Assembly (NCBI GenBank): GCA_027319095.1
Contig: DAHVNW010000007.1
Span: 1-54,008, forward strand
Origin: a bacterium
GTDB taxonomy: Bacteria; SZUA-79; Acidulodesulfobacterales; Acidulodesulfobacteraceae
Length of the DNA stretch: 54,008 bases
Direction: 5' to 3'
Part shown: one piece after another, positions 5,707 through 30,341 of the stretch
Numbering within the stretch: the first letter of the stretch is position 1
Layout: each line of letters starts with the position of its first letter
Position numbers and translations under genes: made by a program
The notes under the pieces: generated by a model
The model's database searches: none
Told to the model about the DNA's origin: nothing
The model's input: the letters and a program-made list of their open reading frames with translations, nothing else

Positions 5707-6882
5707 TTATGCCGCTTCGCTGTCTATCTTTTTCCTGATATCTAATATTTCGTCGAGATTTTTAAGGAAAGCGCCGAAACAGTCCGGGTCGAAAGCCCTG
5801 CCCGGAGCCATTTCTTCTTTCATAATCCTGACCGTTTCTTCCAGCATAAACGCCGGCTTATAAATTCTTTTGTTGATTAACGCATCGAAGACGTCGGCTA
5901 TTTTGGCAATCCTTCCAGTTATTGGAATTTTTTCTCCGGATAATCCGTTTGGATACCCGCCGCCGTCAAAATTTTCATGGTGTGATAAGGCTATTATGGC
6001 GCCTTCTCTCAAGACTTCCGAATCGGAATCTTTTAAAATATTATAACCTATAGTAGTATGCGATTTCATAATTTCAAATTCGTCTTTATTTAAAGGTCCG
6101 GGTTTTAAGAGAATGGCATCCGGTATTCCAACTTTTCCTATATCGTGCATTGGCGCGGCATTTAATATATTTTCCTGAAAAATTTTATCCATTCCGAGTC
6201 CTTTTGCTATAATCTTTGAATAATGCGCCATTCTCGATATGTGCCTGCCCGTATCTTCGTCCCTGTATTCCGCAAGAACGATAAGCCTGTCCAAAGAATC
6301 ATGCTCCGTCTTGTCAACATCGTCGATTGATTTTTGGTAATACGCTTCTATCGCAAGCGTAATATCTATCGAAAGCAGTTTCTGTACAGAATTTAATATG
6401 TTTATAGATTCGTCGGAACTTATCCCATTTTTTTTGCAGCATATCATGACCGCCGAAGTGATAAGCGTATTATAATATCCGTAACTGCCGATATAAATCG
6501 ACGGCGATATTTTGTTGACATAATGCGCAAAACCCACCGTAACCCTGTTTGCAAAATATTTTTCGTCGTACTTTAAACCGAAAAGCTGGCTGATATAGCT
6601 ATATTGAGTGAGTTTTAAAGAATCTAACAGACCTGGTTTGGAGAGAATAATTTTACGCACATCTTCTATGGTCATTAAATAATCGTAAAAAGAAGAAACC
6701 GTTTCCTGCGCTATGTCGCCTATGCAGTCTTTGATTTTAGCGATGCTGTTTATGTCCGATTGAGTAAAGTTAGTCAATTTAAGCATAAAGTTTATGTTTT
6801 TTTGCGAAAAAAGCTCGTAAATACCGGAAGTTCCTTTTTCGGTCATTTTATTTGCTTCTAATATGTCGTTTAATCTGCCCAT
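5707..6882 (-). CDS. Globin-coupled sensor HD-GYP phosphodiesterase
   Basis: This soluble 391-residue protein has two parts. Residues about 20-180 match a protoglobin or globin-coupled sensor domain; FAHYVNKISPSIYIGSY supplies the expected proximal His (H120), so haem and O2 or another gas ligand are likely inputs. Residues about 190-375 form an HD-GYP domain with MHDIGK (H246, D247), HHENFDGGGYP (GYP at 309-311) and downstream IADVFDAL, all consistent with an active c-di-GMP hydrolase. No response-regulator receiver is present. It converges on the diguanylate cyclase gene, so the pair has opposite predicted activities and different sensory inputs. It is transcribed alone, since the next leftward gene upstream has its own stop and a 55-bp gap. 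Confidence 0.9.
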   Translation of the reverse strand: MGRLNDILEANKMTEKGTSGIYELFSQKNINFMLKLTNFTQSDINSIAKIKDCIGDIAQETVSSFYDYLMTIEDVRKIILSKPGLLDSLKLTQYSYISQLFGLKYDEKYFANRVTVGFAHYVNKISPSIYIGSYGYYNTLITSAVMICCKKNGISSDESINILNSVQKLLSIDITLAIEAYYQKSIDDVDKTEHDSLDRLIVLAEYRDEDTGRHISRMAHYSKIIAKGLGMDKIFQENILNAAPMHDIGKVGIPDAILLKPGPLNKDEFEIMKSHTTIGYNILKDSDSEVLREGAIIALSHHENFDGGGYPNGLSGEKIPITGRIAKIADVFDALINKRIYKPAFMLEETVRIMKEEMAPGRAFDPDCFGAFLKNLDEILDIRKKIDSEAA

Positions 6883-6937: not shown

Positions 6938-9130
6938 TTAAAAATATCCTAGGTCCCTCAGCCGTTCCATTAAGGCTTCTTTTTCTTTCGACCTTCCGGA
7001 GCGTTCCCCCTCCCCTTTTTCCGTTTTTTCCGTGCATGGTTTGCAGTCCAAACTTCTATATCCCTCGTTATATAAACCGCAGTATGGAATATTTTCCGAT
7101 TTAATCAAGTCCCAGACGTCTTTTTCGCTGAAGTGCAGCAGGGGATGGACCCTGAAGTGGCCGGGGTCGTTTCTCGCGGAAAAATACGTTTCGTTTGCCC
7201 TTGCCGCATCCTCGTCCCTTCTTACGCCGGTTAAAAGGGCGTTCAGCTTTAACTCGGCTATCAGTTTTTTTAACGGTTCCGTCTTTAAATTTAAACAGCA
7301 TTCCTCTTTATTTTCGGCGATTTTAATTATTCGCAGCTTTTCCGTATTTTGACGGACGATTAAATCAAAATCCCATAAAATTTTAATCTTATCGATAAAT
7401 TCCCTTATCTCTTTAAAATCGGCCGACGTATCGATATTTATAACCCTGAATGGAATTTTTCCGCCGAAGGCTTTTTTTACGAGATAAAGTAGGACCGTAG
7501 AATCCTTGCCGCCGGTGAACCCCACGCCTGCGTCTTTCCCGAACCTGTTAAACGCCTCTTTAATGATTTCCATGCTAAAACCTGCTTTGGAATCGAGAAA
7601 TTCCTTTTCCGCCTTTCCGCCAGTATAAATATTCCCGGTTACTGTTGCATTCCTTTCGAGATTGCCGAGGTATTTTTCATAATTTAAAGCCTCTTTAAAA
7701 TTCATGTCGAAATTAACGGGTTTTTTTTCTAAAGGGTCGCCGCTTAAATCGTAGTAATAATTTTTTATGTTATTGCGTTCTTCCGACGAGATAAACTCGT
7801 TATAAAGTCCGAGCCTCGTCGTTTCTTTGGCTTTTAGCCTGCTAAGCTTTGAATTTAAGCCTTCTTCGTCCGCAAACCTCAAAAGAAGGCTGCGGTACAG
7901 CCATTTGACGTACTCCTCGTCGCCGGTTTTTTTACCGGCTAAATAATCTTCCTTTATGCCGTTTAAATCTATATGCTTAAAAATATACTTTTTATTATTC
8001 GTTCTGACGGCCCTCTGATTAAGAAGATATTCGAAATTATCCGTTAAATTTTCAGCTTTCGGACGGTTAGAACTATCCCCTGACAATTCTATGGATTTAT
8101 CGCCGTATTGTTTTATATAAAAAAGTTCCGAGTAACAAAACTCCCTGTTTTCCGACAAGTCGATGCCGTCTAATTCAGCGCGTGGGAAACCTATTTTCAG
8201 AGCGTTCAAAATAGTGGGAAATATATCCGCAATCGAAGCCAGCCCTTCGTATTTATTTTTTTTTAAGCCCGGCGAATTGAATATCAAAGGAATGCGGATG
8301 ACTTCGTCGAACAGGGCGCCGGCGTGGTTAAAAATGTCCTGGTTTTCCAAAGACACCCTTCCCTCGCCGTGGTCGGAGAGGACGGCATATATCGAATCCT
8401 TATCGAAAAAACCGATTTCTTTAAGATTATCGTATAAATATTTAAACCGTCCCCCGTCGAATTTATTTACCCCTTTTATATAAGGAACTAAAAAAACTGA
8501 CCCGGTTGGCGATACGGCTTTTTTAAGCGCGTTAAACGCCTTGTGGGGTTCCGTTTCGGTCAGCGCGATATTATGGGATAAAGCCGTATTTTTTAAAAAC
8601 TCGTAGTAATCGCCGTTATAATTTTCCGACGGCGGGCATTCGCAGTAAAGATAAGGTTCGTGGACGTCGAACAGATGCATAAAGCAGAACACGTCGCTGT
8701 CCTTAGAGTCCGAAAGCATTTCGAGCAAGCCTTTATCGTCCCGCACAAACCTGCGGGAAAACCCCCGCGTCAGCCCAAACGGTTCGAAAAGTTCCGGAAA
8801 ATCGCCGCTGAATATCGTTTTAAAGCCGTTTTTTCTTAAAATTTCGGCAAGCGTAATGCAGTTATCAGAGAGTTTTTTGTAAAAAAAGGGGCGCAAGCCG
8901 TGGTTAGGCGGATAAAGCCCGGTGAATAGGGAGGCGTGCGCCGCCGTCGTATAGGTATTCGTGCTGAAGCAGTTGGTAAAAACGGAAGAGTTATAAGCTA
9001 TTTCATCAATAGCCGGGGTGTTGACCATGGAGCTGACGCCAGACCGCTCGAGCATGGGCCTGTCGGGATTGTAAGAGACGCAGTCGTATCTTAAGGCGTC
9101 CACGGTGATAATGAGAATTTTTTTACCCAT
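6938..9130 (-). CDS. Fusion: sulfatase-like (alkaline phosphatase superfamily) + PAPS-reductase-family domain
   Basis: This 730-residue protein joins two enzymes. Residues 1-480 look like a sulfatase or phosphodiesterase of the alkaline phosphatase fold: an N-terminal ITVDALRYD, a nucleophile region TNTYTTAAHASLFTG (51-71), LSDHGEG (252-257) and a sulfatase-like end, YYYDLSGDPLEKKPV. The nucleophile region has Thr and no Cys, so a formylglycine sulfatase is not indicated. Residues 515-700 belong to the PAPS reductase/CysH fold: GGKDS (540-544) for nucleotide binding, ECC at 610-612, GVRRDEDAARA, VHPLLHFSEKDVW and CKPC at 696-699. The CC...CxxC set could hold a 4Fe-4S cluster as in APS reductases, but the catalytic ECGLH tail is missing. 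It is the last gene of the leftward operon, 22 bp after the glycosyltransferase gene. Confidence 0.85.
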   Translation of the reverse strand: MGKKILIITVDALRYDCVSYNPDRPMLERSGVSSMVNTPAIDEIAYNSSVFTNCFSTNTYTTAAHASLFTGLYPPNHGLRPFFYKKLSDNCITLAEILRKNGFKTIFSGDFPELFEPFGLTRGFSRRFVRDDKGLLEMLSDSKDSDVFCFMHLFDVHEPYLYCECPPSENYNGDYYEFLKNTALSHNIALTETEPHKAFNALKKAVSPTGSVFLVPYIKGVNKFDGGRFKYLYDNLKEIGFFDKDSIYAVLSDHGEGRVSLENQDIFNHAGALFDEVIRIPLIFNSPGLKKNKYEGLASIADIFPTILNALKIGFPRAELDGIDLSENREFCYSELFYIKQYGDKSIELSGDSSNRPKAENLTDNFEYLLNQRAVRTNNKKYIFKHIDLNGIKEDYLAGKKTGDEEYVKWLYRSLLLRFADEEGLNSKLSRLKAKETTRLGLYNEFISSEERNNIKNYYYDLSGDPLEKKPVNFDMNFKEALNYEKYLGNLERNATVTGNIYTGGKAEKEFLDSKAGFSMEIIKEAFNRFGKDAGVGFTGGKDSTVLLYLVKKAFGGKIPFRVINIDTSADFKEIREFIDKIKILWDFDLIVRQNTEKLRIIKIAENKEECCLNLKTEPLKKLIAELKLNALLTGVRRDEDAARANETYFSARNDPGHFRVHPLLHFSEKDVWDLIKSENIPYCGLYNEGYRSLDCKPCTEKTEKGEGERSGRSKEKEALMERLRDLGYF

Positions 9131-9152: not shown

Positions 9153-12100
9153 TTACATTATTTTTTTATCGACCCAGAGGGCGTTAATCATTCCTTGAAA
9201 CCTTAAGCCCAATTTCGAATAGCGGTGAGACAGCCGCCAGGCTTGGGCATTTTCTGCCTTTTTAACCGCCTCCGGCGAACCCGGTTTAATTTCTCCGATA
9301 ATGCGTTCAATCCCTTCCGCTATCGAAGCGGAATCTGCGCCGGGCAAATACCAGACAGTTTCTGCGATGTCGTCGAAAATAGGAAGCGGGCTGACTGCCA
9401 CGTTACAGCCGGAAGCAATGCCGTAGCGCACGGCAGCGCTTGTAGATTCGCCGGTTCTTTGATAGGGGAACACGGCTAAATCGCACTGCGAAAGATATTT
9501 AAGGCTGATTTCGTCGGGTAAGAAATCCGTGATTAACTCGACTTTATCTTCCAAACCGAGTCTTTTTATTTTTTTAGCGGCTTCTTTTATTAAATTCGAC
9601 GATTCAGGGATAGGATATTCGGCATTAATCATTTTAAGGTTAAGGGTAATATTTTTAACTTTTTTCAGTAAAATCGAAAAAGCGCCTATAAGTTCCATCA
9701 AACCCTTGTGGGGCAGGAAATAACCGTATGAAGCAATAGTAAAGGCGTTGCCGCGATGTTTTGTATGTCCCTTATTGACATTATCGACGTAATTTATAAT
9801 TCCGTGGGGGAACAGCGCGACATTTTCTACCACGCCCAGCGCTTTTAAATTGTTAAGGTCGTTTATCGAATGGACGACGACGCGGCCGCAAGTTTTTAGC
9901 GCTCCGGCTAAAATCGAGAGTTTTTTGTCCGGAGCGTGAACGGGGTCGGTAGTAGAGTGAAGCGTTATAACCGTGATAATTTTCTTGTCCGCTAATTTTT
10001 TAATAAATTCGGAGAAAACGGGTAAATCGAAAAAACCGTAGTTGAATTGAATTACTAATATGTCTATTTTTTTTGAAATAACGGCGCTGAAGAGAGCTTC
10101 GAGCGTCTTATCTTCGTAATTCCAGCATCTTAAGACGTTTTCGGAGTCCGCCGCAATAGTTTGTTCCGTCAATGGGGCAAATATCGTTAAATCGGGAAAA
10201 TCGCCGCCTGTAAGATGGTTAGAATAGGAGGCTATGCCGCATTTGACGTTCCATGACGTAACCCATCCCGTCGACGGGCGGGGAGGCTGTAGAGCCGTCG
10301 ACCACTTGCGCGCAGACGATATCAGCCTTCCGGTTACGTCGCTCCATTTAAAATTGTCTAAAAGGACGTTTCGCCCCTTTCTCGATTTTTCTGTTCTTTC
10401 GAGTTCGGGCAGGCTGTAAATATATTTAAGAATTTCTGCAAGACCGTTTATATCGGGTTCTGCCCATACCGAATCGAACAGGTTAAAATGCGTCCTTGCT
10501 TTCTTAAAAGAATAGTCGATAAGCCAGGCGGTATCTTCGCCGCAAAAATCGAGCTGTCCGCCCCAACCCGTGGTAATGACGGCTAAGCCGGAAAGCATGG
10601 CCTCGGCAAGGGGCAAGCCGAACCCTTCCGCGCGGCTTGGCGCGACAAGGGCGTGGCATTGCGCATAAAGCGCTTTCAGCTGTTCGTCTTTCAAATCTTT
10701 TTCGATAACTATTATATCGGGGCATCCGGCATGGGACTTTCTCGTTTCGTCCAATAAACGGTCCAGGTCGTTATGCGGATTCGGAAATGTTTTTATTATT
10801 AGCGAAACGTCGTCTTTTTCGGTAAAGGCGAGGCAAAAGCTCTTTAGCAATACGTCTATCCCCTTTCTGGGGAAGCATGACGATACATGTAAAAATCTAA
10901 AATTTTTGGCAGGCGTTTTAAAGGAGTTATCGGGAATAATCCGCTCCCAGTGGTCGATTCCGCATCCCGAAACGCCGGCGGGAACGATAAGCCCGTTGTC
11001 CGTCAAAATTTTTTTTACATGCGACGAAAGTGCGGTTATGCCGCCAAGATGTTCGTTAAAATTTTCAATCCATTCATGAGGGAAGCCGGTTTCTTCCCAT
11101 GCGTAGTGGTGCAATAAATTAAGCCTCGAGCGCATATCGCCAACCCTCGGAGGGTAAAGGTTCCTGCTTTGAACCATCGCGTCTTCCGGCTTTGCCGTAA
11201 AACTTTTTTTATACATTAAATCTATGTCCGGATTTAATTTTAAAAATTCCGCGTTAGGGGGATAATCGCCTGGACCTTCGGTCGAATGCAGTATGACTTC
11301 ATGCCCGAGCTTAGAAAGAGAGCGGGCTGTTTCCCTGTTAATAAGCGCTAAGCTGTAAGATGAGTCGAACGGGCCTTCGACGCGCCACGTAATTTTTTGG
11401 GGAAGGGCAGACGAACCGGTTACGGAATAGCTTGTCCTGTTATTATTGTATATACTCGAAGATATTTTAATTAAATCGGAATTTGTTAAGGTTTTTTTAT
11501 CCGGCACGGCGCTGGCGACGGCGTCTATTAAAAGGGTGCGGCGTCCGGCGCGTCCGGCGCGTATTCGGGCCCAGTCCTCCCGCCCCGCCCGCCCGTGCAT
11601 AGCGGATTTTTGTTCGTCCGCAATCTCGAACGCTTTGATTGCTTTTTCTGCGCAGGCATCCCAGGAAAACTTTTTTGCCCGCTTAAGCGAATATTTTCTT
11701 AATTCGCCTAAAAATTCCGGGTTAGATAAAACGCCGTTAATCTTTTCTTCTATAGAACTTGTAATATTTGGGTCGAACATTGCGTCGTCCCTGCCGATTA
11801 CTTCCGGCAGGCTTGCAGCGTTCGAGGCTATAACGGCCGCCCCGCAGCTCATAGCTTCCAAAGGCGGGAAGCCGAAGCCCTCGTGTAAGGAAGGAAATAC
11901 GAATAACGCGCAAAGATTATAAAGCCTTATCAGGTCGTCGTCCGAAACATAACCGGTCATTATAACGTCTTTTCCAGTTAAATTTAAACTTCTTGCGTAA
12001 GCTAAAACCGTATGTTTGTTCCTATCGTCTATTTTACCCGCCAAAACTAACTGATAGCCCTTCTTAAAATCGTATTTTTTAGATGCAAACGCTTTAATAA

Positions 12101-12848
12101 GCCTGTGGCAATTTTTATGCCTGTCGAAAGCTCCGGCATACATAACGAACGGCTTACTTATGGAAAAGCCGCTTAAGAATTTGCCTTTGTCGAATTTGTC
12201 CGCATTCGCTAAGCCGTCGTCAACGGGCATGTGCTTAAAACGGCTGCCGCACCCCGCATAAATCGTGCAGAAACGTTCCCCGTCGATTTCTAAGGATTCC
12301 ACCGCCTCTTTTTTAGTATAATCGGATATCGAAAGCAATATATCCGCCTTTTTTAGATGTTCTATCTTTCGCATGTAATAATCTTTATAAACCTTGTCTT
12401 TAAAAAAAATGTCCTTGTTCATAAGCGGTATCAAATCGTAAATAATTACGGCGTTAACCGCCTTTGCGGGCATCAGTTTAACGGAAGTCGCAATATCGTC
12501 TAAAAAACCTTCGAACAGGCTGGTCGTTAAAATAACGTCCGGCTCGAGGGAGTTTAAAAAGTCTTCCCTGATAATTTCGGAGATGCGGGTTTTCCAGCCG
12601 TCGGCGGGATTGTTTTCCCTTATCCTGAAGGGGATGTCGAATACGAGGATACGGCTTTCCGGCAAAAGATTGCCGAATTGCGCTTTTATTGAGTTTACGG
12701 CATCTTTTGAGGTATTATTTAAAACTATAAAGACCTCATGCCCGTTTTTTTGCCCGGCAATAGCGAGCGCAAGCGACAAAGCGTATCTGCCTATGCCCCT
12801 AAACCTGCTTTCTCCCTGGACAGGCTGTAAATCTATTAATATGCGCAT
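9153..12848 (-). CDS. Three-module GT-B glycosyltransferase
   Basis: This 1231-residue protein contains three glycosyltransferase modules in a row. Module 1 (1-415) opens with MRILIDLQPVQG and has a GT4-type donor site, EGFGFPPLE (323-331). A basic Gly/Arg linker follows (about 418-436). Module 2 (480-850) has EGFGLPLAE (741-749). Module 3 (860-1231) is more divergent, with TGESTSAAVRYG near 1132. Each module could transfer one sugar, so the protein may build a short oligosaccharide or act processively. Donors and acceptor are unknown; a GDP-mannose 4,6-dehydratase in the same locus suggests GDP-linked deoxyhexoses. No signal peptide or membrane segment is seen, so it works in the cytoplasm or at the inner membrane. 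It lies between the FkbM methyltransferase and the sulfatase-like fusion, all leftward. Confidence 0.9.
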   Translation of the reverse strand: MRILIDLQPVQGESRFRGIGRYALSLALAIAGQKNGHEVFIVLNNTSKDAVNSIKAQFGNLLPESRILVFDIPFRIRENNPADGWKTRISEIIREDFLNSLEPDVILTTSLFEGFLDDIATSVKLMPAKAVNAVIIYDLIPLMNKDIFFKDKVYKDYYMRKIEHLKKADILLSISDYTKKEAVESLEIDGERFCTIYAGCGSRFKHMPVDDGLANADKFDKGKFLSGFSISKPFVMYAGAFDRHKNCHRLIKAFASKKYDFKKGYQLVLAGKIDDRNKHTVLAYARSLNLTGKDVIMTGYVSDDDLIRLYNLCALFVFPSLHEGFGFPPLEAMSCGAAVIASNAASLPEVIGRDDAMFDPNITSSIEEKINGVLSNPEFLGELRKYSLKRAKKFSWDACAEKAIKAFEIADEQKSAMHGRAGREDWARIRAGRAGRRTLLIDAVASAVPDKKTLTNSDLIKISSSIYNNNRTSYSVTGSSALPQKITWRVEGPFDSSYSLALINRETARSLSKLGHEVILHSTEGPGDYPPNAEFLKLNPDIDLMYKKSFTAKPEDAMVQSRNLYPPRVGDMRSRLNLLHHYAWEETGFPHEWIENFNEHLGGITALSSHVKKILTDNGLIVPAGVSGCGIDHWERIIPDNSFKTPAKNFRFLHVSSCFPRKGIDVLLKSFCLAFTEKDDVSLIIKTFPNPHNDLDRLLDETRKSHAGCPDIIVIEKDLKDEQLKALYAQCHALVAPSRAEGFGLPLAEAMLSGLAVITTGWGGQLDFCGEDTAWLIDYSFKKARTHFNLFDSVWAEPDINGLAEILKYIYSLPELERTEKSRKGRNVLLDNFKWSDVTGRLISSARKWSTALQPPRPSTGWVTSWNVKCGIASYSNHLTGGDFPDLTIFAPLTEQTIAADSENVLRCWNYEDKTLEALFSAVISKKIDILVIQFNYGFFDLPVFSEFIKKLADKKIITVITLHSTTDPVHAPDKKLSILAGALKTCGRVVVHSINDLNNLKALGVVENVALFPHGIINYVDNVNKGHTKHRGNAFTIASYGYFLPHKGLMELIGAFSILLKKVKNITLNLKMINAEYPIPESSNLIKEAAKKIKRLGLEDKVELITDFLPDEISLKYLSQCDLAVFPYQRTGESTSAAVRYGIASGCNVAVSPLPIFDDIAETVWYLPGADSASIAEGIERIIGEIKPGSPEAVKKAENAQAWRLSHRYSKLGLRFQGMINALWVDKKIM

Positions 12849-12895: not shown

Positions 12896-14125
12896 TTAAT
12901 CGCGGCGTTTCGACTCTTTAGATTCTATCGTACGTTTTAAATCGGCGTAAATGCTCCTTGTTCCCGCGGGCAGGTCGTCTATATCGGCCGGAGGAATGCA
13001 TCCCGAATCCGCGGAATAATAATTTGCATTACGGTAATTTTGCCGCAGTTCGCCGTTATTTGCCCCGCGGCTTAATTTTAATCTTATAATCCGCAGCAAT
13101 TTAGCGATAAAACGCAGAGGCTCCGTGATTTGCCATGACCTGCTATGGGAAAACCCGTTTATATCCACCCGAAGCGATTCAATCTCGGCCCGAAGCGATT
13201 CGGCCTCCGCCATAAGTTCGCCGTTGCGGTTTTCTTTCTCGGCAAGGTTTCGGTTCAGGACGGAAATCTCCGCCATAAGTTCGCCGTTGCGGTTTTCTTT
13301 CTCGGCAAGGTTTCGGTTCAGGACGGAAATCTCCGCCTCCGTTTTTTCTTTTTCCGATTTTTCTTTTGCTAATTTTGAATTGACAACCGAACAAAGCGGA
13401 TTGGAAGCGGTGCCGCTCAGCACAAAGTCGTCGAATACGTTCGGCCCGCAATCGAAAAATTTTTTAAGTTCAGTATATTTTTTATAAATATAGTAGCGGT
13501 TTAGCCCGTCAAAAAAAACAAAAGAATAGCCGCGCGATAAAAGCTCGTTTTCCCATAATTCGAAGTTTTCCGTTTTTTCGTTTGGAACGGTACTTTCTAC
13601 TACTACTATCCACGGTCTGGCGGCAGATTTCCCCCATCCTTTTAAAATCCTGGATTCGAATCCTTCCGCGTCGATTTTTAACCAGTTGATATCCATGCCG
13701 CCCGTCTTGTTAAAAATATCTTCGAGCGTCAGGCAGGGGAGCGTCGTTTCGATAATTCCGAGTCCGCTTTTCCTGTGCCTGTCGGCAATTGCCGGGTCGG
13801 CGGTGTTGAGTCCGGGATTTTCCAAGTTATAAAACGCGGTTAAGCCGGATTTATCTGACAATACGACCTCCAATACAAGGTCGCCGGGACGCTCACGCCT
13901 GAGCAAATCCGCGTAATATCCCGTAGGTTCGACATTAACCCCGCGCCAGCCGCGGTCGTAAAAAGACTTGCTGACCGAATCGATTTCGGGATGAAACGCT
14001 CCGACATCGATATAAAACCCCTTATCCACGTCTTTAAGGGCGCGCCACAGCATGACGTCTTCGAAGTTTTGGGCGTAAGAGACAAATCTTTCGTTTTCTT
14101 TAATCGCGCTTATAGGATGCGGCAT
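12896..14125 (-). CDS. FkbM family methyltransferase with C-terminal coiled coil
   Basis: Residues about 10-230 form an FkbM-type SAM-dependent O-methyltransferase: SYAQNFEDVMLWRAL, the SAM loop YIDVGAFHP, NVEPTG, and WLKIDAEGFE. Members of this family methylate sugars in surface glycans or small molecules. Residues about 250-330 form a Lys/Glu-rich coiled coil that includes a perfect 21-residue tandem duplication (DNA 13211-13337). The C-terminal 80 residues are basic and then polar. The gene begins the leftward glycan operon downstream of the promoter at 14221-14250. The coiled coil may tether the enzyme to a partner such as the triple glycosyltransferase; that is inference. Confidence 0.9.
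   Translation of the reverse strand: MPHPISAIKENERFVSYAQNFEDVMLWRALKDVDKGFYIDVGAFHPEIDSVSKSFYDRGWRGVNVEPTGYYADLLRRERPGDLVLEVVLSDKSGLTAFYNLENPGLNTADPAIADRHRKSGLGIIETTLPCLTLEDIFNKTGGMDINWLKIDAEGFESRILKGWGKSAARPWIVVVESTVPNEKTENFELWENELLSRGYSFVFFDGLNRYYIYKKYTELKKFFDCGPNVFDDFVLSGTASNPLCSVVNSKLAKEKSEKEKTEAEISVLNRNLAEKENRNGELMAEISVLNRNLAEKENRNGELMAEAESLRAEIESLRVDINGFSHSRSWQITEPLRFIAKLLRIIRLKLSRGANNGELRQNYRNANYYSADSGCIPPADIDDLPAGTRSIYADLKRTIESKESKRRD
13211..13337 (-). repeat. 63-bp tandem repeat in the FkbM coiled coil (two copies)
   Basis: Two identical 63-bp units, starting at 13211 and 13274, encode EISVLNRNLAEKENRNGELM plus one residue twice; a partial third unit runs to 13337. The period is a whole number of codons (21), so copy-number change keeps the frame. 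Perfect identity at DNA level indicates recent duplication or active slippage. Confidence 0.92.
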
Positions 14126-14446: not shown

Positions 14447-15830
14447 GCTTTTTTTTATAGCGGCAGTTTTCGCGTCTTTGACGGTTTCGGTTTTTATTCA
14501 AATAAAGCCGGTTTTTTCGCTTAACCTTATAGGCGCATATAAACACGCTCTTAAATACGACCACGGATATAAGGCTGCCTTTTATGCCAAAAAGGCTTCC
14601 GGCATCTACGGAGCTGAAGGTCTTTCCCTTTTTCTTCCCCAGATAAGCGCTTCGGTCGGCGTATCTAGATACGACTTCCTAAGCCCGCCTCCTCTTTATT
14701 TCAGTTTTACTTCGAGGACGGAGGGTATAAGCCTGACGCAGCCCATAATAGACTTTAAAAGATATTTCGAATACGCGCAATACGGCGCAAAGCAGGCGAT
14801 GGGCAGCGACGAGTTTTCCGCCGCCAGGCAAGATTTTATAACAAGGGTTGCGGAGATTTATCTCGACGTTCTTGCGGCAGAAAATTACCTTAAATATCTT
14901 AAAGTCCAAAAAAAAGCCGTACATGAGCAATATAAGCAGGCAAAAGAGCTTTTTAAGGCGGGAAGCGGCACGAAGACGGATGTTTACGAAGCCCTTGCAA
15001 GATATTACTCCGTCGAGTCCGATATTGTCGAGGCAAAGAACAGCCTTAAGAACGCCAGCGCAAAGTTTAAGGGCGTCGTTGGATTAAGCGCAAAGGGGAT
15101 AGACGCATTTAAAAAGGGGGCGGATTTTTTGATACCTGTCAGGGAAAAACTCGGTTACTGGATTGGACTGGCGGAAAAAAATAATCCCGACCTGAAATAC
15201 TACGAAAATAATTCGATTTACCGCGGCGAGGCGGTTAAAAAAGACTGGTCGATGAATTTACCGACTCTTGCCTTTACGGCGGGATACTCCACCACCAACA
15301 CGCAGGAGGTCGTCCAAACGCCGGCCCTTCGTTACTATACCGTAGGCTTTCAGTTAAGCGTTCCCATATTCGACGGAGGCTATTCCGTGGAAAAGTCGAT
15401 AAAATCGGAAAATATTTCTGAAGAGACTAATCAGGAACTAGAAAGAGAGAGGGGCAAGATAATAAGGAAATTAACCGCTTCTTATCTGAGGCTTAAGGGT
15501 TATACCGCCCGTATCAACATGCTAAAGTTAGCCGTTAAATCGGCGGGCATCGTCCTTAAAGCCGACCGGCTCGGGTTTGCCTCCGGCACAAATACTATGT
15601 CCGACGTCCTAAGCGCAATGCAGAAACTCTATGACATGAAGACGAAACTTCTTAAAGCGCAATATGAGTACCTGATGGTTTTCCTTGCCTTAAAGTCTGG
15701 CGCGGGTGTTTTATCCGCCTCCGATTTATACAGGATAAACAAACTGCTAGAAAACAAAAACAAAAATTATAAATTTAAGCTGCAAGCAGGCAACTTAAAC
15801 TACGATAACTATAACTATAAAAAAAATTAA
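14427..15830 (+). CDS. TolC family outer-membrane channel of a type I secretion system
   Basis: The encoded protein is a TolC/OEP-type trimeric channel subunit that carries type I substrates across the periplasm and outer membrane. I prefer TTG at 14427: AGGGG lies 7 nt before it and the product then begins with a clean signal peptide ending near KPVFS. The frame is open upstream to a TTG at 14376, which would add 17 polar residues and spoil the signal. The mature part has the long-helix pattern of the family, with EIYLDVLAAENYLKYLK and a second-half counterpart, and FQLSVPIFDGG near residue 320. A basic, Asn/Tyr-rich tail ends the protein. It is the first of three export genes; the ABC exporter starts 21 bp downstream. 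Confidence 0.88.
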   Translation: MKSAPFTLFFIAAVFASLTVSVFIQIKPVFSLNLIGAYKHALKYDHGYKAAFYAKKASGIYGAEGLSLFLPQISASVGVSRYDFLSPPPLYFSFTSRTEGISLTQPIIDFKRYFEYAQYGAKQAMGSDEFSAARQDFITRVAEIYLDVLAAENYLKYLKVQKKAVHEQYKQAKELFKAGSGTKTDVYEALARYYSVESDIVEAKNSLKNASAKFKGVVGLSAKGIDAFKKGADFLIPVREKLGYWIGLAEKNNPDLKYYENNSIYRGEAVKKDWSMNLPTLAFTAGYSTTNTQEVVQTPALRYYTVGFQLSVPIFDGGYSVEKSIKSENISEETNQELERERGKIIRKLTASYLRLKGYTARINMLKLAVKSAGIVLKADRLGFASGTNTMSDVLSAMQKLYDMKTKLLKAQYEYLMVFLALKSGAGVLSASDLYRINKLLENKNKNYKFKLQAGNLNYDNYNYKKN

Positions 15831-15851
15831 TACCGTAAACCGACTAAAATT

Positions 15852-17642
15852 ATGAATCCGTTCAGACGCTCAAACAAGGTTGCAGCCGGCGGGAGAACCG
15901 AACTTTCGTCGTTACTATACTCTTTTAAAAGGGACTTTTACATAGTGGGGGTATTCAGCTTTATCATCAACCTGATACTTCTTGTTCCAGCGATTTACAT
16001 GCTCCTTGTCTATGACAACGTACTTGCCAGCAGGAACAATATTACGCTAATAGTAATCACCGCGATAATGATATTTATGTACGTACTGATGGGTTTTTTC
16101 GAATGGGTCAGGTCCCAACTTCTAATCCGCATCGGCAACAATATGGACAGGCGCATGAACAGCAGGCTTTTTCAGGTAGCTTTCGAAAAATGCCTTAAAA
16201 CTGGAAGCACCGATGCCTCTTCGGTTTTTAGCGATTTTACCAATTTAAGGCAGTTTATAACCGGCACGGGCACCATCGCTTTCTTCGACGTTCCATGGGT
16301 TCCCATATACGTTCTTGTAATAGGCATAATTTACTGGGTTTTGGGGGTGTTCGCCGCCTTTGCCGCACTTGTTCTTTTTTTGATGGCTTTTTTAAACGAG
16401 TTCGTAAGCAAAAAAAGGATTACCGCTTCAAATAACGCGTATCACGCCGCCGCCTCCTTCGCAAGCCTCAATTTTAGGAACGCGGACGTAATAGAATCCA
16501 TGGGGATGCTAGAAAACGTAAAAAAGCACTGGCATCCTAAATACCAGAATTTTTTAGGGCTTCAGGCAAGCGCCAGCGAAAAAGCTTCCGCGATAAGCGG
16601 CATGACCAAGTTTTTCAGATACCTATTTCAGTCCCTGATACTCGGTTTGGGGGCATATTACGTAATAAACGGGAACATTATAACGGGCGGCGCCATGGTC
16701 GCCGCTTCCATCCTTGTGGGGAGGGCGCTTTCTCCCGTCGACCTTGCCATCGGCGGATGGAAGGGCTTCGTGTCTTCGAGGGATGCCTACAACAGGCTGA
16801 ACCAGCTTTTTACGGCCTTCCCCGAAAGGCAAAGCGGCATGCCTTTGCCCCCGCCTGAAGGCAATATTGCGGCGGTTAATCTTGCAGCCGTCCCCCCGAA
16901 CACAAACCTTCAGGTTTTAAAGGGGATAAGTTTTGAAGCGCAAAAAGGAGACATGGTTGCCATAATCGGTCCGTCCGCTTCGGGAAAATCTACGCTTTCG
17001 AGGATGCTTACCGGCGTATGGACGCCGGCGGCCGGCAGCGTTAAGCTGGACGGCGCAGAGATTTCCTCGTGGGATAAAAACGCCCTCGGCGGCTACATCG
17101 GATATTTGCCGCAGGACATCGAACTTTTAAACGGCACCGTAGCCGAAAATATTTCACGTTTCGGCGATATCGATTCGGAAAAGGTAATAGAAGCCGCAAA
17201 AACCGTTGACATACACGAGATGATTTTAAGCCTCCCAAACGGCTACGATACATATATCGGGGAGGGCGGACTAGTCTTGTCCGGCGGACAGAAACAAAGG
17301 CTCGCGCTTGCGAGGGCAATATACGGGAACCCGAAGTTAGTCGTTCTCGACGAACCTGACTCCAACCTCGACGACATCGGCGGACAAGCGCTTCTCAATA
17401 CGCTTAAAAAACTTAAGGAGAATCAGGCGACCGTTTTTGTGATAAGCCACAGGACGCATATACTTTCGGTAGTCGATAAAATAATGCTTTTAGCCTTCGG
17501 CGTTATTAAAATATTCGGACCGGGCAAAGAAGTCCTGGCTGCGCTTTTGGCGGCCCAGGTTAAAGCCGACGGCATGGCGGCGGTCCAGACCGCCCAACCC
17601 AGGGAAGAAGCGGCGGACTTTAAAAACTTAAGTTCCGAATAA
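15852..17642 (+). CDS. Type I secretion ABC permease/ATPase (PrtD/RsaD-like)
   Basis: This 596-residue half-transporter powers export of the substrate straight from the cytoplasm. The first 330 residues hold about five or six membrane helices, starting with FYIVGVFSFIINLILLVPAIYML. The ATPase domain has Walker A GPSASGKST (about 373-381), the signature LSGGQKQR (about 475-482), Walker B VVLDEP and a switch His in VISHRTH. There is no C39 peptidase domain or long N-terminal appendix, so substrate is expected to carry an uncleaved C-terminal signal, as with PrtD and RsaD. It sits between tolC and the membrane-fusion gene. The Ala-rich tail after about 560 is ordinary variation. Confidence 0.93.
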   Translation: MNPFRRSNKVAAGGRTELSSLLYSFKRDFYIVGVFSFIINLILLVPAIYMLLVYDNVLASRNNITLIVITAIMIFMYVLMGFFEWVRSQLLIRIGNNMDRRMNSRLFQVAFEKCLKTGSTDASSVFSDFTNLRQFITGTGTIAFFDVPWVPIYVLVIGIIYWVLGVFAAFAALVLFLMAFLNEFVSKKRITASNNAYHAAASFASLNFRNADVIESMGMLENVKKHWHPKYQNFLGLQASASEKASAISGMTKFFRYLFQSLILGLGAYYVINGNIITGGAMVAASILVGRALSPVDLAIGGWKGFVSSRDAYNRLNQLFTAFPERQSGMPLPPPEGNIAAVNLAAVPPNTNLQVLKGISFEAQKGDMVAIIGPSASGKSTLSRMLTGVWTPAAGSVKLDGAEISSWDKNALGGYIGYLPQDIELLNGTVAENISRFGDIDSEKVIEAAKTVDIHEMILSLPNGYDTYIGEGGLVLSGGQKQRLALARAIYGNPKLVVLDEPDSNLDDIGGQALLNTLKKLKENQATVFVISHRTHILSVVDKIMLLAFGVIKIFGPGKEVLAALLAAQVKADGMAAVQTAQPREEAADFKNLSSE

Positions 17643-24183: not shown

Positions 24184-25107
24184 ATGTCTAAGACTATGGT
24201 AAAAATCTGCGGAGCAGGCCGAAGTTTAAGGTTTAATACGGACAAAGGCGGTTTTGGGTTATTAGAGGTAATAGCGGCCCTTGTTATTATATCGGTTATG
24301 ACCGCCGCCGCAATGCCTTCTTTAGAGGGCTATTTCAAGCTCGGAGAGGCAAAGTCGGCAATAAATGCCGCCAACGGAATTATAAATGCGGAAATACAGT
24401 ATCAACAGGCGTCATATTCCAATTACGCGGAACGGGGAAATGCGACCGGCGGGAGCGGCGGCTATTTCGGGACGCTGCTTGAAATGATTTACGGAATGAA
24501 TATTTTGCCCGCTGGTAATCGGCAGAGTTTTTTGCCGGAAGGCATATCGTTATCCATGGCAAATTACGGCGGGAACGGTAATTGCTTAGAAAAGCAAATA
24601 GGCGGGGATGCCGCCTACGAGTGTCTTGCCGACGACGGCAACGGGCAGTTCGAACTTGTTATTTACGGGCTTAATAGACCGGGGCTGTCCGAATATGTTC
24701 CAATGTTCGAAAGCGGTATAAAGGGTGGGTTATCCGGTTATTCCAACGGAGCGTTAACCGTCGAGGTAAATGTTCCCTTCGGTTTCAGTGCCTATCCAGT
24801 CATTAATAACAGGAGCGGAGCCGTGAACGTCGGAAGCAAAGGCGCAGCTGGCAGCGGCGGTAACGGCGGCACTGGCGGTGGCGGAGGTTCCTCCGGGCAG
24901 GCTATCGAACAGGCTATCGTGAACAATACGACGATAGAACTTCAGAATGCTGCAGCTGCCTTGGCTTATGCCCGGAACACGGGAGAAAGCGCCGCGCAAG
25001 TTCAGGAGGCTCAGAACGCATATAATACACTGAACGGCGATTACCAATCCGAGGAAAGCTCCTACGGCTTGGCGCCGACTGTATCCGGCGTTGTACCCGG
25101 CGAATAA
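24184..25107 (+). CDS. Orphan type IV pilin-like protein with Gly-rich linker
   Basis: This 307-residue protein has a 23-residue leader and a prepilin cleavage site, GG|FGLLEV, with Glu at +5, then the hydrophobic helix VIAALVIISVMTAAAMP. It should therefore be processed by a prepilin peptidase and assembled by, or tethered to, a type II/type IV pilus machine. After a globular region with a possible disulfide (Cys 138 and 149 areas), a Gly/Ser stretch (about 219-240) links to an Ala/Gln-rich helix and a Pro/Gly end. No pilus assembly genes are in the window, which is unusual. A strong SD, AAAGGAGGA, sits before ATG, and repeats upstream look regulatory. Without homologues I cannot say whether it is a pilin, a pseudopilin or a secreted surface protein using the pilin signal. 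Confidence 0.75.
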   Translation: MSKTMVKICGAGRSLRFNTDKGGFGLLEVIAALVIISVMTAAAMPSLEGYFKLGEAKSAINAANGIINAEIQYQQASYSNYAERGNATGGSGGYFGTLLEMIYGMNILPAGNRQSFLPEGISLSMANYGGNGNCLEKQIGGDAAYECLADDGNGQFELVIYGLNRPGLSEYVPMFESGIKGGLSGYSNGALTVEVNVPFGFSAYPVINNRSGAVNVGSKGAAGSGGNGGTGGGGGSSGQAIEQAIVNNTTIELQNAAAALAYARNTGESAAQVQEAQNAYNTLNGDYQSEESSYGLAPTVSGVVPGE

Positions 25108-25206: not shown

Positions 25207-27054
25207 CTAAAGCGTATCGCCCCCCTTTTCCATATTTGCGGTTTTTTCCTTTATTTTTTCGTAATTGGACTTTTCGTCCGCCGAAAGAACGAGCGTTTCA
25301 GTATTTTGCGCGGTTTCCTTAGTTCCAGCAAGGTCGGTTCTGCGCCTTTTATCCCTTTTTTTGGCAAGCTTTATGCCGGCGTCGTTAAATATATGAACCG
25401 CATGGCTAAAGGCCGGCAGGACAAACTTTGATATGGAAGGATGTCTTTGCGCCTCCTTGCCGGTCAAAAGCACGCCGAGTCCGAAATCTATATTAAGCGT
25501 AAAAGAAGGATACTTTTGGGCGATTTCCTCGAAAAATTTCCATACCGTAATATTTTCTATCCTCGGCAAAATTAAATGGATTAAAACTACCGCATTTTCC
25601 GAAAGGTATGGTTCCAAATTTTCAAAATTGCTTTTTATCGTCTCGTAAGAGCCGAATCCGTTAAAATGCAGGAGGTCTATTTTTTTAATATCGGGATAAA
25701 CGGCGCTTACCGTTTCCATCGTAATATTAATTCCGTTAGAGGCGTCTGGCGGCATTATAACCGATGAAAACCCTTCGTACTTTTTATTGTATTTCGCGAC
25801 TTCGCCGTAAACGTCCTGGGCGCTTAAAACCGGCATATTGACTTTATTGCCGGCGCCTGCGTCATTAGCGGCAGCCGCAGTAGGAGCAGGGGGGCGGTAT
25901 GTTTCTATGCCGAGGCACTTTGCGCGCCCGTCCAGACCGCAGTATTTTAACGCCTGGCAAAATGCAAAATAAGCGTCTCCCTTTTGCACCCCGACCTCCA
26001 CTATCGATCCGGGCTTCAAATTTTCGACGAGCCAGAACGCAAAAGGAATATGGGCGTGCCACGAATATACGTCAGTAAGCCTTTCGGGTTCCATATAAAG
26101 CACCGAGTTTTTAAACATCAGGGGCAGCACATCTATCGGGGTTATTGCATCGCTGATTTTCCTGACCGTTTTGCCTGGAAGAGAAATGCTCTTTTTCCCG
26201 TTTACGATTTTTGCGTTGTTTTCTACTTCGAGAACTTTTGCGTTGACTTCGTCGAATGTTTTAACGGCTGATGCAATACCCCCTTCGCTGCTTTCGTTTT
26301 CGAAGGATTGCAATGCCCCGAATATTTTAGATGCAAACTCCGCGAGGGTTTCGTTGGAAATGTCTTCGAAATCCGTTACGGTATAATCCCTGTAAATGGG
26401 ATTAACCAGCAAACCCGCGTGAACGTCGTTCGTAAGCTGAATGTTTATATTCAGCGACTTTTTCATCTTGTTTACAGAACTTCTCCAGTCGGATAGAATC
26501 GAATCGAAGCCGATAAACGTCCTTAAGGATTTCCTCGATGCGATTTCTGCTTCGAGGTTATATTTAATCCAGCTGAATACATTGGCGTTAATATCCTGCC
26601 TGTTGTAATCGTGCATGGAGTACGCCACTTCCAGCGGATGCCTGTACATAAAACAAACTTTGATATCGAAACCGAGCTCTTCCTGAAGGTCGTAATAGAG
26701 CGGAAGAAGCCTCATGAGCATGGGTTCCTTTAGATACCAGAGTTCTTTTGTAAGATAAGATATTTTCAGGAGATTTCTAAGCTTGTTTTTAACTTCGGCG
26801 ATTTCGCCCGACGTATGCCAGTTTTCGGGAGGGCCCATTAAATTGGTCCTCGAAGGGTCTAGTTTGTCCCATACCCTGCCTATTGCGCCGTGAATATTTA
26901 TTATGTCTTCGCTTTCATAGAAACCCTTTGGATTGAATATATTGGGCTTAACGAGGTCGGAACCCCCGTAAACGCCCAATTTGTCAAGCACACCCGCCAA
27001 AACCGAACTTCCGCTTCTTGCGACGTTTAAAATAAAAATGCCGGTTGATTTCAT
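25207..27054 (-). CDS. Fusion: PAPS-dependent sulfotransferase + class I methyltransferase
   Basis: Residues 1-260 form a sulfotransferase. The 5'-phosphosulfate-binding loop is NVARSGSSVLAGVL (10-23) and the 3'-phosphate-binding element is RHPLEVAYS (138-146). It should transfer sulfate from PAPS to a hydroxyl, probably on a glycan. Residues about 310-540 form a class I SAM methyltransferase like those fused to glycosyltransferases: YMEPERLTDVYSWHAHIPF, the SAM loop GSIVEVGVQKGDAYF (349-363), and IDLLHFNGFGSYE. A basic tail ends the protein. There is no membrane segment. GGAGG lies just before the ATG. It is leftward, 100 bp from the convergent pilin-like gene. Together with the sulfatase-like/PAPS-reductase-like gene it brackets the surface-protein locus. 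The acceptor is unknown. Confidence 0.85.
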   Translation of the reverse strand: MKSTGIFILNVARSGSSVLAGVLDKLGVYGGSDLVKPNIFNPKGFYESEDIINIHGAIGRVWDKLDPSRTNLMGPPENWHTSGEIAEVKNKLRNLLKISYLTKELWYLKEPMLMRLLPLYYDLQEELGFDIKVCFMYRHPLEVAYSMHDYNRQDINANVFSWIKYNLEAEIASRKSLRTFIGFDSILSDWRSSVNKMKKSLNINIQLTNDVHAGLLVNPIYRDYTVTDFEDISNETLAEFASKIFGALQSFENESSEGGIASAVKTFDEVNAKVLEVENNAKIVNGKKSISLPGKTVRKISDAITPIDVLPLMFKNSVLYMEPERLTDVYSWHAHIPFAFWLVENLKPGSIVEVGVQKGDAYFAFCQALKYCGLDGRAKCLGIETYRPPAPTAAAANDAGAGNKVNMPVLSAQDVYGEVAKYNKKYEGFSSVIMPPDASNGINITMETVSAVYPDIKKIDLLHFNGFGSYETIKSNFENLEPYLSENAVVLIHLILPRIENITVWKFFEEIAQKYPSFTLNIDFGLGVLLTGKEAQRHPSISKFVLPAFSHAVHIFNDAGIKLAKKRDKRRRTDLAGTKETAQNTETLVLSADEKSNYEKIKEKTANMEKGGDTL

Positions 27055-29627: not shown

Positions 29628-30341
29628 CTAACTTTCTTTAAAACCCATTTTAACGGCTCTTTCCCTATAATAATGGGCGAGCCAGGATAAAAGAACATTG
29701 TAATCCCGGGAGTCGTAAAACTTTATCATGGCCTTGTTGAAATCCAGCTTGTCTTCGGCTTTAATGTTTAAAACCGGATATCCGTTTTGCATTAAAATCC
29801 CGTTCGCCATAAGGCGGGAGGTTCTTTTATTGCCGTCCCAGAAGAACTGGTTTAAGCTTCCGAATCCGAAAAAGACCAGCGCGCGCGTAATTGGATTTTC
29901 TAAGGTTTTTATGTCGTTAAGCCCTTTCTCGAAGATTCTGGAAAGCCTGGCGGCTTCCGGCGGAACATAGTCCGTTCCGCCTATAGTTACCCTGCCTGTC
30001 CGAAAGCTGCCGGGGGCGAGCGACTCGCCCTCAGCCACGAGCAGGTTGAAATCGGAAAAAGTTTTCCGGTTCAATTCGAAGTTGTTTTCCTTTACTAAGG
30101 ATAGCAGCAGCTCGAGGGATTTTTCCTGGCTCAATACCTGCCGCTCGTCTTCTATTTTATGCCCGCCTACCGTAACGCCTTCCAAAAGGGTTTTGACTTC
30201 CGGAAACGTCATGGGGTTGCCTTCAAGGTTTACCACGTTATAGACGTAGGAAACCTTGTCCTTTTTCGCAAGGAAATATGAAAGCTCCCTGTCGGGGCTC
30301 AGTTTGAAATCCGAATATTCCGGGTTTATATTTATATTCAT
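29628..30341 (-). CDS. Fic/DOC family protein with degenerate catalytic motif
   Basis: This 237-residue protein has the Fic fold. The core motif reads QFFWDGNKR (165-173) where active AMPylators have HPFxDGNGR, so the catalytic His is Gln and the Pro is Phe. The anion-binding DGNKR part is intact. An early helix with TLLEG (51-55) sits where an inhibitory (S/T)xxxE(G/N) motif is often found, but its spacing is not canonical. Such proteins may be inactive, may use another chemistry, or may be decayed toxins. A short frameshifted antitoxin-like gene and a PD-(D/E)XK protein lie directly upstream on the same strand, and tRNA-Lys follows, as expected for a small accessory cassette. Confidence 0.85.
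   Translation of the reverse strand: MNININPEYSDFKLSPDRELSYFLAKKDKVSYVYNVVNLEGNPMTFPEVKTLLEGVTVGGHKIEDERQVLSQEKSLELLLSLVKENNFELNRKTFSDFNLLVAEGESLAPGSFRTGRVTIGGTDYVPPEAARLSRIFEKGLNDIKTLENPITRALVFFGFGSLNQFFWDGNKRTSRLMANGILMQNGYPVLNIKAEDKLDFNKAMIKFYDSRDYNVLLSWLAHYYRERAVKMGFKES

Follow-up and report, generated by a model that had tools for sequence, protein, structure and literature searches.

The window analyzed in this work is a 54,008-bp stretch of contig DAHVNW010000007.1, which belongs to a 1.78-Mb draft genome (168 contigs, 97% complete). At positions 6938-9130 on the minus strand, we found a single unbroken frame of 730 codons in which Pfam matched both a sulfatase domain (PF00884) and a PAPS reductase domain (PF01507). 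A preliminary description of this DNA had read the locus as one gene with two halves and had proposed a search for this domain architecture, and both domains are indeed in the same chain. Pfam also turned up a DUF4214 segment that was missing from that description and that is present in a paralogue too. The features of the gene and of the two genes upstream are as follows.

6938-9130, minus strand: fusion gene (730 aa) with an alkaline phosphatase (AP)-superfamily, sulfatase-like domain, a DUF4214 segment, and a CysD-like PP-loop domain
8195-9118, minus strand: sulfatase domain PF00884, residues 5-312 (Pfam, E 6.6e-20)
8948-8950, minus strand: Thr61, at the nucleophile position (formylglycine Cys in sulfatases), invariant in all fusions
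8369-8374, minus strand: Asp253-His254 of SDHGEG, metal-site motif, invariant
7775-7936, minus strand: DUF4214 PF13946, residues 399-452 (Pfam, 25.5 bits vs. cut-off 23.2)
6941-7597, minus strand: CysD-like PP-loop domain, residues 512-730 (Pfam, alignment, and a 225-residue model)
Residues 538-701 of the same protein: PAPS_reduct PF01507 (Pfam, E 3.3e-38)
7499-7513, minus strand: GGKDS pyrophosphate-binding loop, residues 540-544 (motif conservation)
7295-7300, minus strand: Cys611-Cys612, first pair of predicted [4Fe-4S] ligands (alignment, conservation)
7034-7045, minus strand: Cys696-x-x-Cys699, second pair of predicted [4Fe-4S] ligands (alignment, conservation)
6992-7006, minus strand: ERSGR, residues 709-713, in which Arg710 and Arg713 line up with Arg242 and Arg245 in the Pseudomonas aeruginosa APS reductase (2goy)
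6941-6952, minus strand: LGYF C-terminus, common to CysD (RQGYF in Escherichia coli)
9153-12848, minus strand: gene for a 1231-aa protein whose single chain has three GT4 glycosyltransferase matches (Pfam), 22 bp upstream of the fusion
12896-14125, minus strand: FkbM-family methyltransferase (Pfam), first gene of the apparent operon

The FkbM gene lies 47 bp upstream of the GT4 gene, and a stretch of ~25 residues (EKENRNGELMAEISVLNRNLA) is duplicated in its protein. The other strand carries what appears by eye to be a type I secretion-like set (outer-membrane channel, ABC transporter, and membrane-fusion protein), together with a gene for a 1112-aa protein that has no Pfam match. Several other genes in the window were also recorded. 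A pilin-like gene at 24184-25107 (N-terminal GFGLLEVIAALVIISVMTAAA) recurs near fusions in five genomes (also at L052, L056, L060, and L066), and its product is a possible carrier of the glycan. The neighbor at 25207-27054 (615 aa) had been taken by eye for a sulfotransferase, but Pfam gave a methyltransferase domain only. A protoglobin joined to an HD-type (HD-GYP-like) domain is encoded at 5707-6882 and is a possible gas-sensing cyclic-di-GMP enzyme. The Fic-family-like protein encoded at 29628-30341 has the motif QFFWDGNKRTSR, with Gln replacing the usual catalytic His.

The first half of the fusion protein has the PF00884 fold with the metal-site Asp and His residues, and D11, T61, D253, H254, and H269 are invariant across all fusions. 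The profile of this domain is closest to the S1 carbohydrate sulfatases, and its sequence identity to haloarchaeal sulfatases (those examined were from a Halopiger glycan locus) is only ~22%. The Cys or Ser of CxPSR that formylglycine requires is replaced by the invariant Thr61, as the preliminary description had noticed. The protein has no evident signal peptide and, judged from this feature of the sequence, is probably cytosolic. In Halobacterium salinarum, the sulfatase-like protein Agl30 and its cytosolic counterpart Agl31 add sulfate to S-layer glycans, based on gene deletion and on expression in Haloferax (PMC11980604, 2025). The sulfate donor is not named in that study, and the mass shift it gives for Haloferax (~79.96 Da as printed) by itself fits sulfate or phosphate. 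Because sulfatase-like proteins can add sulfate, activation followed by transfer is the favored direction for the fusion. The preliminary suggestion that the two halves cooperate, with nucleotide and sulfur chemistry likely linked, stands, but the coupling of ester cleavage to sulfur transfer appears less likely than activation followed by glycan transfer. The AP half seems somewhat better described as a transferase than as a hydrolase. An AP hydrolase that removes sulfate, with a PP-loop half that re-activates or senses it, would agree with the nearest solved structures, which are sulfate-removing S1 sulfatases; however, with the formylglycine Cys absent and Agl30/Agl31 adding sulfate, we consider such sulfate editing very improbable.

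By profile and alignment, the second half is CysD-like and has the four Cys that ligate the cluster in APS reductase. The best PDB match to the PP-loop family profile is CysD (1zun_A, 1.3e-41, vs. 1.8e-25 for the APS reductase 2goy), and the C-terminal tail ERxGR...GYF is the same as that of E. coli CysD. In the alignment to 2goy, the four Cys fall on C139, C140, C228, and C231, and K616, R710, and R713 fall on K144, R242, and R245, which we take to be the residues that bind phosphosulfate in APS reductase. No fusion of the phylum has lost the residues matching K144, R242, and R245 or any of the four cluster Cys. Structure prediction was poor for the whole protein (first model, mean pLDDT 53.6) and reached a mean pLDDT of 93.5 for the PP-loop domain (225 residues). 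The domain model matches APS-bound APS reductase (2goy), PAPS reductases, and CysD, with FAD synthase also among the structural matches and TtuA a remote one. The domain misses the CysD cut-offs (136.7 bits vs. 195 for NF003587; 102.1 vs. 396.6 for TIGR02039). Its close relative L129 has the CC pair and exceeds the curated CysD cut-off (352 vs. 195 bits); a CysN that likewise exceeds its cut-off (350 vs. 336) is 2 bp away, so a CysD bearing such Cys residues does exist. None of the 30 genomes of the phylum has a CysN over the TIGR02034 cut-off.

The catalytic C-terminal Cys of APS reductase (ECGxH) is absent from the whole PP-loop family. The preliminary description was correct in reporting GGKDS and CC...CxxC (located here at residues 540-544, C611-C612, and C696xxC699) and in noting that ECGLH is missing, but its reading of this absence as a loss from CysH did not hold. 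A CysH with a lost active site is rejected by the tail, the profile scores, and L129, and for a CysD-like domain the absence of ECGLH is the normal state. Neither half is thus expected to perform its textbook reaction, since the first lacks the formylglycine Cys and the second the catalytic ECGLH, as had been proposed. Sulfur-oxyanion chemistry is probable for the second half. A [4Fe-4S] PP-loop sulfurtransferase similar to DndC/SspD or TtuA, which would sulfurate a phosphate or sugar presented by the AP half, could explain a PP-loop with a predicted cluster but no catalytic Cys, and TtuA is a remote structural match. This thiolation is improbable considering the very weak profile matches (DndC, 0.13; SspD, 0.0011), the CysD-like sequence and tail, and the fact that a dedicated cysteine desulfurase was not noticed in the loci.

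Among the 30 genomes sampled from the phylum, which by gene content appears to be the Acidulodesulfobacterales/SZUA-79 group (one family, six genera), 16 genomes belonging to two of the genera contain the fusion. Sixteen frames are full length and uncut, and the remainder stop at contig ends. Tandem copies were found at L052 and L056 (one of the L056 copies is cut). All noted motifs are kept in each of the 16 full-length, uncut fusions, which is far beyond chance, and GGKDS, CC, CxxC, and ERxGR...LGYF are present in every fusion of the phylum with one F for L as the sole variation. In this phylum, PF01507 is confined to the fusion; the only exceptions are single weak additional matches in G015 and in G003. 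In another phylum, the fusion was found in one of 395 genomes (G330; L110:9665-11824, 719 aa), with no further fusion among 16 other genomes of the same order. The G330 copy has lost GGKDS and all four cluster Cys, keeps intact AP motifs, and stands in tandem with a sulfatase-only paralogue. This decay pattern indicates that loss of PP-loop activity need not entail loss of the AP half. In the tree of PP-loop domains, the fusions form one group with support of 86/74 when the long-branched G330 is included and 97/87 when it is left out; the most economical reading is that the fusion arose once. An assembly join, which the preliminary description had named as a possible refutation, is ruled out by the independently assembled genomes of the phylum (16), G330, a phage copy, and the conserved motifs.

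Of the 395 genomes from the other phylum, 11 encode stand-alone PP-loop proteins with CC and CxxC (44-51% identical), with 14 such loci in total. An AP gene is located within 4 kb of the stand-alone cluster-type PP-loop gene at 11 of these loci (excluding a 60-residue fragment in L121) and within less than 80 bp at six, which serves as Rosetta-stone evidence for the coupling of the two activities. Several of the loci come from related genomes and the 14 represent ~7 arrangements, so these counts are not fully independent. The gaps in the six close pairs are 3, 28, 32, 41, 76, and 78 bp between matched stretches, and the frames overlap at L124. By comparison, none of the seven loci outside the cluster-type group has an AP gene (Fisher p 0.001), and none occurs in a 380-kb control taken from elsewhere in six of the same genomes. 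A CysD-like gene without the cluster Cys was also found near sulfatases and glycosyltransferases on a Halopiger plasmid. Furthermore, a 219-aa AP-like gene (identified by eye), a DUF2061 membrane gene, and a CysD-like gene overlap serially in two other viral-collection contigs (L157 and L159, 2058-3762), which we regard as another AP plus CysD-like pairing. L157 has an additional Alba-like (archaeal) neighbor.

In all paired AP genes except that of L117, the nucleophile is readable and is Thr (sulfatase type) or Ser (phosphodiesterase type), never Cys. The occurrence of PF01663 phosphodiesterase-type genes among them points to phosphate chemistry. Thr or Ser commonly serves as the nucleophile in phosphodiesterases and phosphotransferases of the AP superfamily, and the Thr AP domain could accordingly transfer or hydrolyze phospho, phosphoglycerol, or nucleotidyl groups, with the PP-loop half adenylylating the substrate as does FAD synthase, one of its structural matches. 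However, the AP profile is nearest to S1 carbohydrate sulfatases, the PP-loop profile is nearest to CysD, and the positions corresponding to the phosphosulfate ligands are kept, so this phospho-decoration is unlikely. Directly upstream of the stand-alone PP-loop gene, three loci have a gene resembling UDP-sulfoquinovose synthase (440.6 bits, cut-off 575). This arrangement, and the fit of the cluster ligands and fold to APS reductase, would agree with a sulfonate route in which the PP-loop protein, as an unusual APS reductase or sulfite-forming enzyme, supplies UDP-sulfoquinovose synthesis, and the AP protein acts on a phosphate or sulfate ester in that glycan. Such a route is quite unlikely given that the catalytic C-terminal Cys is absent family-wide, the GGKDS loop (for ATP) is kept, and no such synthase gene was found near the fusions.

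A full-length fusion of 753 aa, at most 64.6% identical to the host copies, was found in a 63.9-kb IMG/VR contig.

L156:1408-3669 and L238:11432-13693: phage fusion on the 63.9-kb contig, inside the tail module

This gene adjoins a tail-sheath gene (PHROG, 1.1e-52) upstream of baseplate genes and is possibly an auxiliary gene that alters the host surface. On the same contig, repeat-rich genes at L238:6552-7406 (minus strand) and 14920-16481 (plus strand) share an 836-bp inverted repeat with 81% identity, which looks like an invertible tail-fiber cassette. The phage copy could also mean a role in host-phage conflict. BREX type 4 combines a PAPS-reductase-like BrxP with the AP-superfamily protein PglZ, and the PP-loop half has a weak match to BrxP (2.5e-10). 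However, a defense module of this kind is scarcely credible, as the AP half belongs to PF00884, the proteins tested gave no PADLOC match to PglZ, the same glycan genes recur as neighbors, and other BREX genes were not noticed. BREX/Dnd defense is not supported, given the unmatched PglZ, this single weak BrxP match, and the DndC and SspD values given above.

Glycosyltransferases, FkbM, flippases, and sugar epimerases recur at the fusion loci, and a role in surface-glycan decoration is very likely. In five genomes, the fusion is located between recR-like and ffh-like housekeeping genes (identified by eye), outside a glycan locus. In G015, a PAPS-type sulfotransferase adjoins tandem fusions. Dedicated cysDNC genes and sulfotransferases in a capsule locus have been called a hallmark of sulfated polysaccharides (PMC11641403). 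Sat is present in 27 of the 30 genomes of the phylum, so APS is obtainable without the PP-loop domain. APS kinase was found in 13 of the 16 fusion-bearing genomes and in six of the 14 others (Fisher p 0.06, a weak difference), and PAPS is therefore usually available to the fusion-bearing strains. No APS kinase was found in the fusion-bearing G000, G015, and G018, and neither Sat nor APS kinase in G015; these are incomplete drafts, so such absences are suggestive only.

We prefer activation followed by glycan transfer because it accounts for most of these observations. The fusion would then work in the cytosol and sulfate, in two steps, a glycan of the S-layer or of another part of the cell surface, a reading to which we assign a probability of roughly 0.45. 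In the first step, the CysD-like domain would bind ATP via the GGKDS loop and form APS with sulfate held by Lys616, Arg710, and Arg713 beside the predicted [4Fe-4S] cluster. In the second step, the AP domain would take the sulfuryl group on Thr61 at the metal site and hand it on to a hydroxyl group on a sugar of the lipid-linked or nucleotide-linked glycan that the neighboring glycosyltransferases make. CysD makes APS using energy from CysN (PMC4373884). With both activities in one chain, or in coupled genes elsewhere, immediate use of APS might pull the unfavorable APS-forming step without the CysN GTPase. Direct donation from APS to the glycan is a tentative element of this scheme, for which we would give slightly less than even odds. 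A more specific proposal is a PAPS-independent, self-contained glycan sulfotransferase, in which a CysD-like Fe-S domain makes APS and the Thr AP domain of the same chain sulfates surface sugars, with separate coupled genes doing so in other phyla and a phage using the fusion on the host surface. We regard this full combination as doubtful.

If this scheme is true, APS made on the spot, not PAPS, would be a donor candidate for glycan sulfation by sulfatase-like proteins, and the pairing would provide a rule for re-annotating many "sulfatase" and "PAPS reductase" genes in surface-glycan loci. The phage copy further suggests that phages exploit glycan sulfation. The parts of this system are already known, whereas the open-licence literature searched gave no description of the fusion or of the recurrent CysD-like/AP pairing. 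Likewise, the libraries searched showed no common, characterized architecture of this type, the other refutation that the preliminary description had considered.

Compared with known systems, the fusion shares the PP-loop GKDS, the overall sequence, and the ERxGR...GYF tail with CysD. It differs in that its domain is shorter, scores under every curated CysD cut-off, has CC and CxxC, and is joined to an AP domain in a phylum with no CysN. The assimilatory APS reductase (CysH with [4Fe-4S]) has the same fold, the same four cluster Cys, and the residues aligned at K144, R242, and R245, whereas the fusion lacks the catalytic C-terminal Cys and has an ATP-type GGKDS loop. BrxP of BREX type 4 and DndC/SspD also have a PAPS-reductase-family PP-loop, which in BREX is accompanied by the AP-superfamily protein PglZ; in contrast, the fusion has no PglZ, its matches to these proteins are weak, and no BREX or Dnd gene was noticed nearby. 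The S1 carbohydrate sulfatases (e.g., BT1596) belong to the same PF00884 family and have the metal-site Asp and His motifs, whereas the fusion has Thr in place of Cys/formylglycine, is apparently cytosolic, and has a PP-loop domain attached. Agl30 and Agl31, which we set beside the fusion by description, differ in being separate proteins from an archaeon. They are likewise sulfatase-like members of the AP superfamily encoded in a glycosylation gene cluster, Agl31 is cytosolic, and Agl30 and the AP profile of the fusion both lead to BT1596 (5g2t/5G2U).
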